A program made the position numbers and the translations under genes. The notes below the pieces were generated by a model. That model saw nothing but the letters and a program-made list of their open reading frames with translations. It searched no databases and was not told the DNA's origin. 35,131 nt of DNA, taken from assembly GCF_900188225.1 (NCBI RefSeq), contig NZ_FZOC01000004.1:1-35131 (forward strand), given 5' to 3'. Each line of letters starts with the position of its first letter. Within the stretch, counting starts at the first letter, position 1. The DNA comes from Humidesulfovibrio mexicanus (GTDB taxonomy: Bacteria; Desulfobacterota; Desulfovibrionia; Desulfovibrionales; Desulfovibrionaceae). Below, one piece after another: positions 3,681 to 28,603 of the stretch.

Positions 3681-4251
3681 TGGGCTCCCCCGTCGTGCCC
3701 CCGCTATCCCCCGGATGCGTGTGGTGCTCCAGGCTCACGCCGCCCGCCACGTGGTCGCCGTCAGAAGTGATAGCGCCCGTGGTGTGCAGGCTGCCCGTCA
3801 TGGTGGCCGCCGCCGCGCCGCCGCCAGTGCCCTGCATGGTGATTGAGGGCGTCTCGAAAACAACCTGCTGGCTGGCCTTAATGTGCAGCGTCTTTGTCTC
3901 CACCTCGATGCGCTCCTGCTTCAAATGCACCTTGTCGCCCCACATGCTGTAGATGCAGGCCTCGCCGCTTGCCACATCCACCCGGTACGCCCCGTTCTCC
4001 GTGGCGATGATGACGCTGTGCGCGGTGCTGCCACCCAGGGGCAGCACAATGAGCTGCGTGCCCGGCGGCGGCGCGCTGGTGAAGCCGAAGTGCTGGAACA
4101 GCTCGGCGGCTTGCAGGCGCTCGCCCGCCAAGGCCTCGGCCTGGGCCAACTGCACAGCCGCGCCCTTGCCCAGGGTGGACAGCCTGGCGCGGAAGGCCAG
4201 GCGCAGGCCCGCAAACCTGCGGTCAACGTAGCGCATCACGTCACGAATCAT
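3676..4251 (-). CDS. Baseplate central spike protein (Mu gp45, gpV-like)
   Basis: A 191-residue protein starting MIRDVMRYVDRRFAGLRLAFRAR and ending EHHTHPGDSGGTTGEPK. Residues ~1-100 contain the OB-like part seen in gp45/gpV proteins (TQLIVLPLGGSTAHSVIIA); the following repeats (VHLKQERIEVETKTLHIKAS) are the triple beta-helix of the needle. The closing HTHP is the His-X-His motif known in P2 gpV and Mu gp45 to coordinate an iron ion at the needle tip. Start at 4251 overlaps the gp44 stop by four bases (ATGA). Longer upstream reading in this frame is only the shadow of gp44. It pierces the outer membrane during injection. Confidence 0.92.
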   Translation of the reverse strand: MIRDVMRYVDRRFAGLRLAFRARLSTLGKGAAVQLAQAEALAGERLQAAELFQHFGFTSAPPPGTQLIVLPLGGSTAHSVIIATENGAYRVDVASGEACIYSMWGDKVHLKQERIEVETKTLHIKASQQVVFETPSITMQGTGGGAAAATMTGSLHTTGAITSDGDHVAGGVSLEHHTHPGDSGGTTGEPK

Positions 4252-5405
4252 AGATCGACAATGCCTCCCGCGCCCGCGCCAGCCCCGGCCTTGCGTTTGT
4301 GCCGCTTGTGGTGGCTCACGTCCGGCTGCCACAGGCCGTCCGGCTTCAGCGCCAGCTCCGTTATCTGCCCCTGGCCCCGGCCGCACAGGAAGGTGCGGCG
4401 CATGAGGTAGTACACGCCGCTTATGCCGTGCGGCTCGCTGACCACGCGCACCCGCTGGCCGGGCGTCCACAGGGGGGCCAGGCCGCTTGCCCCAATCGCC
4501 CCCAGCACCCGGTGCCCGCGCACGCTGGCGTGGATCTCATAGGCGGCCAGCTTGCCGTCCGCCACAATCTTGCGCGCCCGGCGCTGGGCGTGGCCGGTGG
4601 TTTCGCAATCCGCCTCCACCACTATCTTGGGGCGGTTCACGGGGGCGTCCGCCGCGCTATCCTTGGCCGTGGCGCGGATGTTGTGCGCGCCCTCCGCGCT
4701 TTCCGTGCCGTGGCCCTGGCCAAGCACCGTCACTTCGGAATAGCGCTCCTGCACGCCGCGCCGCTCCACCAGGCGCAGCACGTTGTTGCCCTTTCCGCCG
4801 TCCTGCCCGCTGGCGCGCACGGTCAGTTGCCCCACGGGCGGGTTGGTGGCGTCGGTGTAGTCCGGCCCGCCGATGACCAGCGTTCCGTCCGGCGCGAAGT
4901 ACGGCCAGCAGCCGTTCTGCTCGCACACGCGCTCAAGCGCGTCCCAGGCGGTCATGCCGGGGTCCACCGAAATCTTGTCGTGGCGGGCAGTGCCCGCTTC
5001 CACTTTGATGGACGTTATGCCCAGGGGCCGCACCATCTTGGCCACGATTTCGTCCAGGCCGCACTGCCGCGCGCTGAACACCGGGGCGGAGCAATCCACC
5101 AGCACCCCGGCCAGGTCGCGCCCGGAAAGGGACAGGGTGTGGGCGTCCTTGGCCACGTCGGTTTCCATGCTGTCCAGGCGGCCACGCAAAATGACCTGGC
5201 CGCCCAGGGTCAGCGTCACCGGCGCCCAGGGCCGCACATATTCCGGCAGGGCCTGGCCGTCCGTGGGGGCGGGCAAACCAAGGCTCACCCGCCAGCCGTC
5301 CGCCGGGGTCAGCAGGTCCGAATCCACCTCGTAGCGTTCCCAATCGCGGTGTTCGCGCCCGTCTATAATAAGGCCCACCTTGTCGGCGTCATCGCTACTT
5401 TGCAT
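4248..5405 (-). CDS. P: Baseplate hub protein gp44 (Mu P)
   Basis: A 385-residue protein of the Mu gp44/late control D type, the trimeric hub that holds the spike. N-terminal signature VGLIIDGREHRDWERYEVDSDLLTPADGWRVSL is split here at IDGREHRDWERYEV and TPADGWRVSL; the middle holds LSGRDLAGVLVDCSAP, and ISVDPGMTAWDALERVCEQNG is the conserved core. The C-terminus is basic (HHKRHKRKAG) followed by a Gly/Ala run. The start at 5405 overlaps the N gene stop by 11 bases. Size is close to Mu gp44 (379 residues). Neighbours N and gp45 confirm the assignment. Confidence 0.93.
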   Translation of the reverse strand: MQSSDDADKVGLIIDGREHRDWERYEVDSDLLTPADGWRVSLGLPAPTDGQALPEYVRPWAPVTLTLGGQVILRGRLDSMETDVAKDAHTLSLSGRDLAGVLVDCSAPVFSARQCGLDEIVAKMVRPLGITSIKVEAGTARHDKISVDPGMTAWDALERVCEQNGCWPYFAPDGTLVIGGPDYTDATNPPVGQLTVRASGQDGGKGNNVLRLVERRGVQERYSEVTVLGQGHGTESAEGAHNIRATAKDSAADAPVNRPKIVVEADCETTGHAQRRARKIVADGKLAAYEIHASVRGHRVLGAIGASGLAPLWTPGQRVRVVSEPHGISGVYYLMRRTFLCGRGQGQITELALKPDGLWQPDVSHHKRHKRKAGAGAGAGGIVDL

Positions 5406-6636
5406 AGACGGTCAGCTCCTGGCCGGGCGTTAGAAAGTTGGGATCGCGCAAGGCGTTTAACCGCTGAATTTCCAGGGCGCGGGTGTGGTCGCCGTACAGC
5501 CGGTGGGCCAGCAGGCGCGGGCAGCTGCGCGCGGCCACGGTGTGGGCGACAAGCGGCGGCCGGGCCGCGATGACGGCGGCGGCGGACTGCTGCACGGCAA
5601 GCGCCACGTCCTTCAAGGGCTCGGTGGCCGCGTGCGCCTGCTCCACCGGGTACACGGCGCGGTAGGTGTCGATACTGGTCTGGATGAGTTCGCGTGAATT
5701 GCCGGCAACGGTTTCAATCTCCACCGGGGAGAGCGTGGGCGTTTGCGCCTCGGCTTCCAGCACGGTTTGCGCGGCTTCAGCAAGGCCAACGGCGGCCTCG
5801 GCCAGCACATGGGCGGCGGCGGTGTCCAGCTCCGCGCCCTGGACCGGTGGCGTTGCGGCTTCATCCGTGCCGGGGGCTGTCCAGAACACGCCGCCGGTTC
5901 CAGTTCCGCCGGAGCCGCCGCCGGAACCGGAAAAGGACGGCAGCAGAATGGCCGCAGTCAGCGAGGCCAGCAGGCCGTTGAAATCCGGCAGGAGCGAGCC
6001 CGCGCCAAAGCTGCGCAGGTCCGCCAGACCGCGCACCAGGCTGGCGGCATCGGCCGCCCAGGCGGCCGGGGAGGAAAGGATGTCATAGCCGCTCAACAGC
6101 TGGCCGGAAAGCTGGGCCTGAAGGCCCGCCAGGCTGCGCAGGCCGGAACGCACCAGCGCGCCGGGGTTCTTGCTGTTGGCCACGGCGTGCTCCAGCACGC
6201 CAAGCGTCCCGGCGCGGGCGGTGTCCGCCTTGGCCCCCACCATGGGCCAGGTGCGCGCGAAAAACGGCGTGTCCGCCCCGGCTTCCACGAACTCCAGCGC
6301 CACCTCGGCGTAATCCGGCCGCTCGCCCTCGTGGGGGATGTCCCAGCTGACGGCCTGGGCCTTGAGCGGCCCGAACACCGGGTGCACCAGCTCGCCCGCG
6401 CCGCGTTCGCCTAGGGCCTTGATGAGCTTTTCAAGCGCCTGCTCGTAGCCTGGCCCCCAAAACACGGCGGTGATGCTGATGCGCCGGGCCTTGCGGGCCA
6501 GGTCTTCCACCTCGCCGCCGTCGCGGTAGGGATATTCGTGGAGGGCCACGGCCTTTTCGCCATGGTCGCGGGTGCGCAGCACCTCAAAAGGCGCGCCCCG
6601 GAAACTGGCGGGAAGCAGGGTGTCTTTCCAGGCCAT
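5395..6636 (-). CDS. N: DNA circularisation / tail protein N (Mu gp43)
   Basis: A 413-residue protein starting MAWKDTLLPASFRGAPFEVLR, which is the family signature of the DNA circularisation protein N-terminal domain. Motifs RISITAVFWGPGYEQALEKL and the closing NALRDPNFLTPGQELTVYAK match the LysM-like tail of Mu N. In Mu this protein belongs to the tail/baseplate hub (a T4 gp29/gp48-like position next to the tape measure). The central ~130 residues are low-complexity Ala/Gly/Thr, as usual. It starts 11 bases after the tape measure stop. Confidence 0.92.
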   Translation of the reverse strand: MAWKDTLLPASFRGAPFEVLRTRDHGEKAVALHEYPYRDGGEVEDLARKARRISITAVFWGPGYEQALEKLIKALGERGAGELVHPVFGPLKAQAVSWDIPHEGERPDYAEVALEFVEAGADTPFFARTWPMVGAKADTARAGTLGVLEHAVANSKNPGALVRSGLRSLAGLQAQLSGQLLSGYDILSSPAAWAADAASLVRGLADLRSFGAGSLLPDFNGLLASLTAAILLPSFSGSGGGSGGTGTGGVFWTAPGTDEAATPPVQGAELDTAAAHVLAEAAVGLAEAAQTVLEAEAQTPTLSPVEIETVAGNSRELIQTSIDTYRAVYPVEQAHAATEPLKDVALAVQQSAAAVIAARPPLVAHTVAARSCPRLLAHRLYGDHTRALEIQRLNALRDPNFLTPGQELTVYAK

Positions 6637-15802: not shown

Positions 15803-16387
15803 CTACGCCCCTTCCAGCGCGCTTCGCACGGCCCTACGCACGCTCTCCTCAATTTCCGCTTCCTCCGGTTTGCCGATACCCAAGAAGGGCCGGGCCGGGA
15901 TGTCGCCCCAGGGGAGGGGCATGCTGCCGCCCCGGGCGCGGCCAGAGAGCCAGCCGCCCACGGTGGCCCCGCCGCGCGCGGTGTAGTTGCGTGCGTTGCG
16001 GCGGCCCGCACCCCGCGTGCCGCGCTTGGCCTGGCCGAAGCTGCCCTTCTTTGCGCCGCGCTGGTGCGTGCCCGCATACACCTTATTGGTGCCTACGGCG
16101 GCAAAGTGCGGGCCGTGCTCGGTTTGAATGCTGGCGGCCAGCTGGCCGGAAACCTGGAGGATTGCGCCGGTGTGCCCGGCCTTGGCGCGGCGGGCCAAGG
16201 TGGCCGGGGAAAGCGGGCGCCACTTCTCGCCCGTGGCCGGGTCTTCCTCATCGGCAAAGGCGCGGTCCACCCCGCCCTTGAGCACCTCGGCCAGGTCGCG
16301 GGTGAGCGGGCTCATGTCCTCGCCCAGCCGCGCCAGGCGGGTGAGCCCGGCTTTCACAATGTCTATATTGACTTCAATTTCGATCAT
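15803..16387 (-). CDS. G: Virion morphogenesis protein G (Mu gp31)
   Basis: A 194-residue protein of the phage virion morphogenesis (gpG/gpS tail completion) family. It starts MIEIEVNIDIVKAGLTRLAR; family motifs are GEKWRPLSPATLARRAKAG, LQVSGQLAASIQTE and VYAGTHQRGAKKGSFG, and RPFLGIGKPEEAEIEESV at the C-terminus. It acts in head-tail morphogenesis. I place the start at 16387 because upstream codons overlap the tRNA-like RNA and the end of F and show no ribosome site. The plus-strand promoter of that RNA lies within the first codons of this gene. Confidence 0.9.
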   Translation of the reverse strand: MIEIEVNIDIVKAGLTRLARLGEDMSPLTRDLAEVLKGGVDRAFADEEDPATGEKWRPLSPATLARRAKAGHTGAILQVSGQLAASIQTEHGPHFAAVGTNKVYAGTHQRGAKKGSFGQAKRGTRGAGRRNARNYTARGGATVGGWLSGRARGGSMPLPWGDIPARPFLGIGKPEEAEIEESVRRAVRSALEGA

Positions 16388-16396
16388 GCGTATTTT
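16368..16396 (+). promoter_or_regulatory. Sigma70-like promoter of the tRNA-like RNA
   Basis: TTGACT (16368-16373), 17-base spacer, TATTTT (16391-16396); a purine start at about 16403 lies three bases before the first paired base of the predicted RNA. The -35 and spacer fall inside the first codons of gene G on the other strand, and this little stretch is AT-rich compared with the rest of the operon. Confidence 0.7.
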
Positions 16397-16402
16397 CTCA
16401 CT

Positions 16403-16491
16403 AGACCCTGTGGGCGTACCCGAAGCCGGTAAGCGGGCTGGAGGGGGGCAACCCCCTTGCAGGTATGCGGTTCGACTCCGCCCCCACGGGG
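16403..16491 (+). ncRNA. tRNA-like structured RNA lacking an anticodon arm
   Basis: The plus strand folds into a cloverleaf. Acceptor-like stem: 16406-16414 with 16483-16491, nine pairs including one G-U. D-arm: CCCG (16419-16422) with CGGG (16434-16437), 11-base loop carrying the GG pair at 16428-16429. T-arm: GCGG (16467-16470) with CCGC (16478-16481) around a canonical TTCGACT loop. In place of the anticodon arm is a hairpin, CTG/CAG then AGGGGG/CCCCCT, capped by GCAA, a GNRA tetraloop. There is no anticodon loop and no encoded CCA, so this is unlikely to be a decoding tRNA. It is preceded by a well-spaced promoter, lies antisense to the late operon in the gap between F and G, and resembles the cargo genes in orientation. 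Function unknown: decoy, regulatory RNA or partner of a tRNA-processing enzyme are all possible. Confidence 0.65.
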
Positions 16492-17847
16492 TTATTCTTT
16501 CGCCCAAAGAAGCCGCAGCTGCGATTGCGCCAGCGGGCGCGCGTCAATCTCGCCAATCTCCATGACATTCACCACGGCGTCAAAGCGCCCCAGCTTGGCC
16601 AGGCCCTTGGCGTCCTTGGGGCGCATGGGCACGTCCACCACTATCTTGAGCACGCGCCCCGGCTCTTTGGTCGGGCACACGTAGACCAGGTTGGCGTTTT
16701 CCGCGTCCCACAAGACGGCCGTGGCCTCGTCCAGGAGCTGCGGCAGGCGCAGCAAATCCTCCCGCGCCGGGGCCGTGCCCATGCGGCGGTGCTTGGCGCT
16801 GTCCGCGTGCAGCAGGCGCTTGGCGCTGGCCGTGACCACCTGCACGGGCTCGCCGCCCGCCTCGCGTACGGCCTGGGCAACTTCCGAGCGCATAAAATGC
16901 ACCACCTGGGCTTGGGCCGTGCCGCCGCGCCGGGTGTCCAGCACGCCGCGCGCGAAGTTCTCAAACGCCTGGCGCCGGGCCGGGTTGCCGTTCAGCGCCT
17001 GCACGGCCTGGGCGCGCAGGCCGGTATCCTGCACCAGAGAGAGCCGCCGGGCGGCCTCCATGTCCAGGCCGTAGGCCGCCGCGCCGGGGTGGTAGCTAAA
17101 GCCGGGGTCGGTCCACACCGTGGGCGCGTCCGGGGCGGTGCCGATCTTGTAGCCCGTGACCTGGCGCACGCTGGCTTCGCCCGTGCGGCGGTCCACCAGC
17201 TCCACGTCGCGCGTGCGCATGTTGCCCTCGCCGCTCTCCGGGGTGATGCCCTCGCGCGCCAGGCCTGTTTCGGACAAGGCTTGCACGCGGCAGCGGCAGC
17301 CCCAGCCGTTGGGCGGGTAGTGGCTGGCCCAAAAGGCGTCGTCAAAGCGGAAGGTGCGGCCGTTCAGCAGCCGGTGCGCGGGCCTGGTGCGCTGGTCCAG
17401 CACGGCCACGTAGCGCCACCAGGGGCGGTTGTCCGCGTTCTCCAGCATTTGCTTGTAGCGCCCGCACTGGTAAGCCGTCTGCATGTTCTGGCGGTAGATG
17501 AGCTTGAGGCGCGCCGGGCTGCCCATGCGCACGGTCTTTTCCTGCCCGTCCGCCCCCACTTCCGTGCGCTTGCCCCACCAGCCCTTGGCGCGAAGCACGG
17601 GCTCCAGGTCCTTGGCGAACAGCTTTTGCGTTCGGCCCTCGGACAGGGCTTGCTTCACCGCGCCGCGAATGTCCTCCAGCACGTCCAGGCTGGCCACATT
17701 GGTCACTGTGAAGGCCTTGGCCTGGGCCTCTTGCCACACCTCGTGCCAGTTGAACGTGATCTGCGCCCCCTTGGATTCCAGGTAACTGATGGCGTCCTTG
17801 GGCGGCAGGGTGAGCAGGAAGCCCAAGGAAACGTCGGGCGTGGCCAT
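16492..17847 (-). CDS. F: Minor head protein F (Mu gp30) with C-terminal nuclease-like domain
   Basis: A 451-residue protein. Residues ~1-230 are the Mu F / SPP1 gp7 head morphogenesis domain: ARLKLIYRQNMQTAYQCGRY and the signature RPAHRLLNGRTFRFDDAFWAS, then HYPPNGWGCRCRVQ. After a linker, residues ~325-451 (VQVVTASAKRLLHADSAKHR, LPQLLDEATAVLWDAENANLVYV, ending VVNVMEIGEID...RLLWAKE) have the look of the phage-Barnase-EndoU-colicin-RelE (PBECR) domains that are known to be fused to Mu F-like proteins; that part of the call is less certain. F is packaged in few copies near the portal. A nuclease domain there could be delivered with the DNA. The stop at 16492 directly adjoins the tRNA-like RNA. 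Confidence 0.9.
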   Translation of the reverse strand: MATPDVSLGFLLTLPPKDAISYLESKGAQITFNWHEVWQEAQAKAFTVTNVASLDVLEDIRGAVKQALSEGRTQKLFAKDLEPVLRAKGWWGKRTEVGADGQEKTVRMGSPARLKLIYRQNMQTAYQCGRYKQMLENADNRPWWRYVAVLDQRTRPAHRLLNGRTFRFDDAFWASHYPPNGWGCRCRVQALSETGLAREGITPESGEGNMRTRDVELVDRRTGEASVRQVTGYKIGTAPDAPTVWTDPGFSYHPGAAAYGLDMEAARRLSLVQDTGLRAQAVQALNGNPARRQAFENFARGVLDTRRGGTAQAQVVHFMRSEVAQAVREAGGEPVQVVTASAKRLLHADSAKHRRMGTAPAREDLLRLPQLLDEATAVLWDAENANLVYVCPTKEPGRVLKIVVDVPMRPKDAKGLAKLGRFDAVVNVMEIGEIDARPLAQSQLRLLWAKE

Positions 17848-27365: not shown

Positions 27366-27428
27366 GTTTGGCTGCTCTTCAGGGCCGGGCAACCACGCCT
27401 GGCCGACCGTCCGTGTGGGCGGTTTCGC
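27366..27428 (-). repeat. Intergenic hairpin element, copy A (after the Mor-like gene)
   Basis: Minus strand: GCGAAACCGCC near 27425-27415, then CGGTC, an 8-bp stem with loop GTGGTT (27404-27397 with 27390-27383), then CTGAAGAGCAGCCAAAC. Copy B after gam has the same loop and flanks but a different stem sequence. The flanks and loop are kept while stem bases change in pairs, which points to a structured RNA or conserved regulatory site. Confidence 0.6.
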
Positions 27429-27437
27429 AAGGTGGAG

Positions 27438-28512: not shown

Positions 28513-28597
28513 GTTTGGCTGCTCATCAGGCCGGGGCAACCACGCCCCGGCGACCGCGCCCCCGTCCCTTCGATAAGGGCGGCGGGAGGCGGTTTCG
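28513..28597 (-). repeat. Intergenic hairpin element, copy B (after gam)
   Basis: Minus strand: GCGAAACCGCC near 28596-28586, about 30 bases with a further hairpin, CGGTC, a perfect stem GCCGGGGC/GCCCCGGC around loop GTGGTT (28551-28530), then CTGATGAGCAGCCAAAC. It stands in the 258-base gene-free gap between gam and gemA. The remainder of that gap (28346-28512) shows no gene I trust: an ATG at 28526 opens a long frame, but it shadows gemA. Confidence 0.6.
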
Positions 28598-28603
28598 CTT
28601 GGG

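Follow-up and report, generated by a model that had tools for sequence, protein, structure and literature searches.

A tRNA-like RNA without an anticodon arm between the F and G genes of Mu-like phages

Sequence comparison confirms that a cloverleaf RNA, here called class A, is a real and widespread small RNA gene of Mu-like phages, with a fixed place between the F and G genes. Its secondary structure, its conservation, the position of its promoter and its slot all emerge from the comparison of relatives. Just short of even confidence, we suggest that this RNA is an autonomous RNA moron, acting in trans as a tRNA-shaped decoy for a host factor.

Results

The RNA in the window and its parts

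The window, which is the whole stretch of 35,131 nucleotides from Humidesulfovibrio mexicanus that was analysed, holds a Mu-like prophage. Its late genes run on the minus strand and include gpT, protease I, a G-like gene (Pfam Phage_tail_S), an F-like gene (Pfam Phage_Mu_F) and Portal_Mu. The tRNA-like RNA (16405..16491, plus strand), located by direct reading and by covariance models, fills the spacer between the G-like gene (15803..16387, minus strand, ATG at 16387) and the F-like gene (16492..17847, minus strand, stop at 16492). By direct reading, a -35 box TTGACT (16368..16373, plus strand) lies within the first codons of the opposite-strand G-like gene. The -10 box TATTTT (16391..16396, plus strand) follows after 17 nt, and the paired RNA begins about 8 nt further downstream.

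The acceptor-like closing stem of 9 bp pairs 16406..16414 with 16483..16491 on the plus strand, and its 3' strand ends directly at the F stop codon, leaving no CCA. The equivalents of U8 and purine 9 (16417..16418, plus strand) precede the D-like arm (16419..16437, plus strand), in which 4 bp, CCCG/CGGG (16419-16422/16434-16437), enclose a loop whose GG stands at 16428-16429. Where a tRNA has its anticodon arm, there is a hairpin (16438..16462, plus strand); its cap reads GCAA or CAA depending on the register (3–4 nt). The T-like arm (16467..16481, plus strand) is built from 4 bp, GCGG/CCGC (16467-16470/16478-16481), and the loop TTCGACT. The promoter, the four-arm cloverleaf, the elbow-like loops, the hairpin in place of the anticodon arm and the missing CCA, all named in the original prediction, can thus be read in the sequence. 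With four stems, GG in loop 1, a T-like loop, a promoter and an antisense slot behind F, the window RNA has every feature that defines class A.

The same RNA departs from tRNA at several points. The 5-bp stem with a 7-nt loop of a tRNA anticodon arm is absent, and the closing stem of 9 bp and the T-like stem of 4 bp stand in place of a 7-bp acceptor and a 5-bp T stem. With a replaced anticodon arm, no encoded CCA and a closing stem that exceeds the tRNA length, the RNA should not serve as a translating tRNA. We notice that the earlier claim of an RNA antisense to F and G holds in part: the RNA does run opposite the late operon, but it covers the F–G spacer and not the coding sequence of either gene, and only the -35 box lies in G codons.

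Taken alone, the window RNA folds weakly (z -1.05 and -1.49), and its MFE fold lacks a canonical D arm. Single-sequence folding was therefore dropped as proof, and the real test is the comparison with relatives, that is, covariation. The ARAGORN check proposed with the original prediction came out negative, the window RNA not being called as a tRNA. No Rfam 15 family, tRNA included, passes its gathering score at this RNA; the nearest tRNA family, selenocysteine tRNA (RF01852), gives 12.5 bits (E 9.4) against a gathering score of 47, and the Tymovirus tRNA-like family (RF00233) gives 11.1 bits against 40. Neither ARAGORN nor Rfam places a tmRNA in the window. Across the phage collection, DNA similarity to the window RNA amounts to a single 29-nt match (E 4). 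Elsewhere in the window, ARAGORN gives a tRNA-??? with a two-base anticodon at 5828-5919 (plus strand), antisense inside the ORF 5395-6636, which is probably spurious.

Relatives by covariance model and by slot

A search with the F protein returned 17 viral loci, 11 of which (L001–L011) hold the RNA. L013 has neither spacer nor RNA, L012 and L014 stop short of the slot, L015 and L016 carry another RNA in it, and L017 carries a diverged tRNA-like RNA. Because a MAFFT alignment of the diverged members misplaced the D arm, models were used instead. Covariance model R1, trained on seven relatives with the window left out, gives 83.9 bits to the window and 57.0 and 39.8 bits to the diverged loci L024 and L023. 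Over 297 genomes of the class, R1 matched five, once each; four matches adjoin an F gene directly, and the fifth (G001) lies behind F with a cargo gene between them. This genome search used strict filters and missed the diverged members L023, L032 and L033, which were recognised by eye.

We scanned both strands of 293 partly redundant F loci, comprising 80 named-genome loci (the best 80 of 540), viral contigs and the earlier loci, for a T-arm beside a long closing stem. The scan gave 114 matches, of which 85 are antisense just behind F, none is sense at that place and 29 lie elsewhere. Four of these 29 are genuine copies separated from F by a cargo gene, and they represent two places, each sampled twice.

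For a second covariance model, R2, 17 members that do not belong to the window's subfamily were used: six come from named Gammaproteobacteria or their phage and 11 from viral contigs. Over 88 chosen loci it gives 59 matches in 57 loci, the window included (27.9 bits, E 7e-5). Matches were found in Pasteurella phage Pmp9, Edwardsiella, Photorhabdus, Gilliamella, Shewanella, Marinomonas, Avibacterium, Actinobacillus and Desulfovibrio piger; among the window's subfamily, L007 and L010, which have the T-loop UGCAAGU, are missed. R2 is non-specific at low scores, and that of the window is not diagnostic by itself: other genomes give 26–34 bits elsewhere, presumably at tRNAs. It was rejected as a genome-wide detector since ordinary tRNAs reach 45.9 bits, and weak matches were counted only together with the slot.

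In the order of Edwardsiella, 33 of 295 genomes match R2. Twenty loci from those 33 genomes comprise 15 ordinary tRNA-Gly or tRNA-Arg (L303–L317) and five that are not (L298–L302), one of which, L299, ARAGORN gives as tRNA-???. Matches at E 1e-7 are found in 12 of 140 genomes from the family to which Actinobacillus capsulatus belongs. Among 5426 complete E. coli genomes, 159 carry a homologue of the viral-contig member L152; with the RNA of E. coli itself as query, the number is 168. The annotation of 40 such matches, spread over the ranking, places a phage head gene under all 40 and names a tRNA-OTHER in 19. In the one E. coli region that was read, RNA and F are arranged as in the window.

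The contents of the slot were tallied in three sets whose seeds included carriers, so that the counts are not frequencies in Mu-like phages at large: 79 distinct named-genome slots hold class A in 18, a second cloverleaf (class B, see below) in 7, a spacer under 40 nt in 32 and another spacer in 15, with 7 not assessable; 122 distinct viral slots give 50, 16, 25, 21 and 10 in the same order, and the 30 top loci of the class search give 8, 10, 0, 7 and 5. Some of the other spacers (L016, L026, L082, L183) probably hold class A or class B. Phage Mu and JBD26 have no F–G gap.

Covariation and tRNA core nucleotides

In 55 distinct R2 matches, 95.1% of cells are paired against 63.5% after shuffling, both sides change in 20 of 21 pairs, and double-change cells number 351 against 93 ± 12 in shuffled and 49–62 in slid structures; the alignment was fitted to R2 and so leans towards the model, and the controls are far off nonetheless. 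Changes on both sides are found in 9/9 pairs of the closing stem, 4/4 of the D-like arm, 3/3 at the base of the hairpin replacing the anticodon arm and 4/5 of the T-like arm. The original prediction had staked itself on the relatives being free of substitutions that break the stems, and here it is borne out: the stems vary yet stay paired. The ninth closing-stem pair is standard in 47 of the 55 distinct relatives. Acceptor lengths taken from R2 matches were discarded, as the nine positions are imposed by the model itself. The aligned relatives hold 67 GU cells against 15 AC cells in an alignment fitted to the plus-strand model, and this excess of GU fits the plus strand as the RNA.

Conservation extends to unpaired positions, which by our reading correspond to tRNA core nucleotides: in the R2 set, U8 is kept in 96%, A14 in 96%, G18G19 in 98%, TTC in 55/55 and A58 in 98%. 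The T-loop, TTCGACT in the window itself, is TGCAAGT in 8 of its 11 closest relatives (UGCAAGU in the RNA), so that U55 is not universal. CCA stands near the stem end in one of 62 matches. The third arm varies in length, and its caps, judged by eye, are short and varied. The idea of a tRNA-elbow mimic without an anticodon is strengthened by these relatives, which keep the elbow nucleotides and have a variable hairpin for the anticodon arm. Of 58 loci given to ARAGORN, 8 receive a tRNA call at the RNA (L074, L170, L281, L320–L323, L329); the eight calls share no common anticodon, and three of them fall in Actinobacillus-type members.

Promoter and terminator signals

When the 22 nt preceding the stem are scored in 56 distinct RNAs, the top -10 hexamer averages 5.8 bits, compared with 2.70 ± 0.32 bits (maximum 3.5) in 300 shuffles of the upstream sequence. 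Hexamers of at least 5.5 bits precede 34 of the 56 RNAs, whereas two control windows lying further upstream each give 11 of 56; the value lies below 3 bits in 8 of 56. The modal start of the -10 box is -13 (15 of 56), which puts the predicted start of transcription at the first pair. TTGACT or TTGACA with a spacing of 17–18 nt also occurs in L023, L024, L033, L050, L073, L078, L081, L084 and L100. By eye, and unscored, terminator-like hairpins are seen directly behind the RNA in L230, L063, L065, L069–L071 and L075.

Two marks of a moron can be read from the sequence: the RNA has its own predicted promoter, and it is absent from the close relative L013. The comparison supports the promoter and the orientation against the late operon, and it shows a moron-like pattern of presence and absence.

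Displaced copies and odd members

Behind the RNA of L008/L022, and co-oriented with it, is a 265-aa gene. The L008 cargo has one relative, on the same contig, and its likeness to DUF2971 is not significant (E 0.12). The copy in L301 adjoins G with no F beside it. In L302, which has no F nearby, the tRNA-like RNA (1501-1577) is flanked by a TIR-domain gene on one side and a DUF2971 gene on the other, and both flanking genes match PADLOC candidate-defence models. A link of the RNA to DUF2971-like cargo, considered for L008 and L302, was rejected as not significant.

L325 is located near host genes and L327 beside a tyrosine integrase, neither with F alongside. Both score within the ordinary tRNA range (44.9–47.7 bits; ordinary tRNAs to 45.9). 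ARAGORN makes no call at L302, L325 or L327. L323 and L329, which ARAGORN gives as tRNA-Tyr and tRNA-Asn, were withdrawn as free-standing copies and may not belong to the family. L170 has three tandem tRNA-like matches in one slot (3956-4263, minus strand); Rfam scores one of them above its tRNA gathering cut-off, and ARAGORN takes another for tRNA-Lys.

A second cloverleaf in the same slot

In other Mu-like prophages, the same slot holds, in the same orientation, a cloverleaf with no sequence likeness to class A, which we call class B. Its plan is a closing stem with three arms, of which the third sits directly against the closing stem in a tRNA-like manner, and loops 1 and 3 can pair. Class B was found in the F–G spacers of L015, L025, L027–L031, L034, L044, L046, L047, L085, L098, L187, L199, L203, L205, L334 and others. 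Run on 87 chosen loci, the class B covariance model, R3, finds 35 matches spread over 34 of them; 17 of the matches are its training set and the rest include close copies. It also matches Mannheimia phage 3927AP2 (43.8 bits) and a Gastranaerophilales genome (32.8 bits). Rfam scans of the class B loci report no family at this RNA.

Over all 33 distinct rows, double changes occur in 27 of 31 pairs and 4 of 5 pairs of the kissing helix, with 202 cells against 57 ± 6 after shuffling. The second L216 match (E 0.53) is probably due to chance; leaving it out lowers the counts to 25 of 31 for the pairs, 3 of 5 for the kissing helix and 192 for the cells. The plan, slot, orientation and promoter position shared by two unrelated sequences suggest that shape is selected. 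The likeness of classes A and B could also come from very old common descent.

Other RNAs in the slot were noticed by eye. That of Haemophilus phage SuMu (L333, about 5300-5410, minus strand) resembles class B with a changed kissing pair; neither R2 nor R3 matches it. Further structured-looking slot RNAs occur in L035, L036, L038 and L090; L039 and L040; L093, L202, L280 and L283; L095 and L295; and L181 and L293, and several of them are preceded by a promoter-like box. Rfam reports sRNA-Xcc1 in two Mu-like loci, L017 (629-714, minus strand, 73.5 bits) and L247 (5597-5678, minus strand, 65.2 bits).

Discussion

A proposed role and its alternatives

We propose that a sigma70-type promoter directed against the late head operon would produce a transcript of about 85–100 nt that begins with the first nucleotide of the acceptor-like stem and that, in some relatives, may end at an intrinsic terminator immediately downstream. 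With elbow nucleotides in its D-like and T-like loops, the cloverleaf would fold into an L shape. The RNA would then act in trans, either during lysogeny or soon after infection, and confront a host factor that recognises the elbow with a tRNA-like shape; candidate targets are a tRNA-cutting or tRNA-sensing defence enzyme and a tRNA-processing enzyme. As an outcome, the prophage would be protected or competitors would be excluded. Transcription, L shape, trans action and target are what we infer from the comparison.

The second, unrelated family with the same plan and slot counts for shape as a selected trait, and the copies without F that ARAGORN does not call (L302, L327) count for an RNA moron acting in trans. 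On the other hand, the constancy of the slot counts against a trans decoy, which need not keep one slot. Few copies lie away from F, the scores of L325 and L327 fall in the tRNA range, and U55 is lacking in 8 of the 11 closest relatives; 32 of the 79 named-genome slots have no spacer, and 8 of 56 RNAs lack a good -10 box. These points also weigh against the RNA moron. In JBD26, a Mu-like phage of Pseudomonas, anti-CRISPR genes lie between G and protease I, and their presence in this neighbouring gap makes a defence-related role plausible, not demonstrated. We also entertain a broader idea, tentatively: Mu-like phages of several phyla may keep a slot for at least two sequence-unrelated cloverleaf families, one with a true tRNA elbow and one with kissing loops 1 and 3, which imitate tRNA purely by shape and interfere with the tRNA-reading machinery of the host in defence or counter-defence.

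Two other functions seem unlikely, each to about the same degree. The plus-strand transcript, or its transcription, might act in cis and dampen the F–G part of the late mRNA, with the fold serving stability only. The antisense position at the F–G junction of F loci, the overlap of the promoter with the 5' end of G, and the unrelated structured RNAs that share slot and orientation would suit such an action. An elbow is not needed for pairing, however, and yet U8, A14, GG and TTC are conserved; a small number of copies is found apart from F and G, the gap is absent in Mu and JBD26, and the RNA is absent in L013. Regulation of F and G, one of the roles first put forward, has thus lost ground as the main one, given the spacer position, the missing RNA in L013, the displaced copies and the unrelated cloverleaf substitutes. 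Alternatively, the RNA might work in trans as a tRNA-shaped guide or cofactor that enlists, for example, RNase P, the ribosome or an enzyme of T-loop modification on behalf of the phage. The evidence of the fold speaks for this as much as for a decoy, but F and G occur without the RNA, which leaves no obvious partner protein, and U55 is lacking in 8 of 11 close relatives.

A virion or packaging RNA, comparable in role to phi29 pRNA, would account for a place in the head cluster, and the RNA does lie between the head genes F and G in most cases and behind the phage major head protein in L329. We consider this role very improbable: L013 has no RNA, phage Mu has no gap, L302 and L327 sit beside other genes, the promoter opposes the late operon, and the tRNA-Asn call by ARAGORN at L329 makes the packaging reading less likely still. 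The chance is slighter yet that the family consists of tRNA genes in decay, or of tRNA fragments that an integrative element deposited at an attachment site, despite the tRNA-OTHER annotations, the ARAGORN calls in 8 of 58 loci, the ordinary tRNA-Gly and tRNA-Arg picked up by R2, the integrase adjoining L327 and the fact that tRNA fragments are an annotation error described in passages of PMC9897764, since decay would yield neither compensatory changes in 20 of 21 pairs nor a fixed promoter distance; covariation contradicts it as a general account, and single members may be tRNA remnants.

The trans-acting, tRNA-shaped decoy remains the reading we favour. If shape is how the RNA acts, phages would have in it an RNA-based reply to tRNA enzymes or to immunity that works through tRNA. 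The occurrence of two unrelated cloverleafs in the same slot would be one of the rare natural examples of convergence on the tRNA shape. The RNA genes would form a widespread family, extending to E. coli, that annotation overlooks or files as tRNA-OTHER, and existing transcriptome data of Mu-like lysogens are worth re-examining.

Comparison with known systems

The RNA resembles tRNA in its cloverleaf, in U8, A14, G18G19 and the T-loop nucleotides, and in a T arm close to the closing stem. It differs as a phage RNA without an anticodon arm or encoded CCA, with a longer closing stem, its own promoter at the first pair and a phage slot. Elbow-bearing tRNA-like domains without a normal anticodon arm are also found in tmRNA and in the bacterial Y RNA YrlA. 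The likeness lies in this domain; for the window RNA, ARAGORN makes no tmRNA call and no Rfam family passes its gathering score. Murid gammaherpesvirus 68, a DNA virus, reportedly makes free-standing small tRNA-like RNAs, which are eukaryotic pol III transcripts linked to microRNAs. The phage RNA is likewise free-standing and tRNA-like, whereas that virus is unrelated.

The anti-CRISPR morons of Pseudomonas Mu-like phages are likewise accessory genes in the head-gene region. They differ in being proteins, in occupying another gap and, in JBD26, in being co-oriented with the late genes. Passages of PMC10085705 describe hammerhead and twister ribozymes as enriched near Mu-like genes; these are also structured RNAs of Mu-like phages, but self-cleaving. 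In the window, two type II hammerhead ribozymes (27366-27430 and 28513-28600, both minus strand; 63 and 62 bits) flank the Mor-domain region, and the same genome has two more, on C1 and C5. Rfam scans of 47 loci report neither hammerhead nor twister; the two in the window lie in its early region.

Neither Rfam 15 nor the open-access papers among the matches listed yielded a description of the gene family or of a cloverleaf slot, and papers beyond these may contain one; term searches of the main text of PMC4986893, PMC10708910, PMC4104026, PMC9936078 and PMC5148205 brought up no such RNA. Viral RNAs that mimic the tRNA elbow are described, in passages of PMC4810234, for plant RNA viruses (the Tymovirus TLS). 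The Tymovirus structure (RF00233) differs from the phage RNA, as it is part of an RNA virus genome and uses a pseudoknot. At the level of the fold, the phage RNA would thus belong to viral tRNA mimicry, which is already known (PMC4810234, in the same passages); what appears to be new is the gene family and a slot for interchangeable cloverleaf RNAs.
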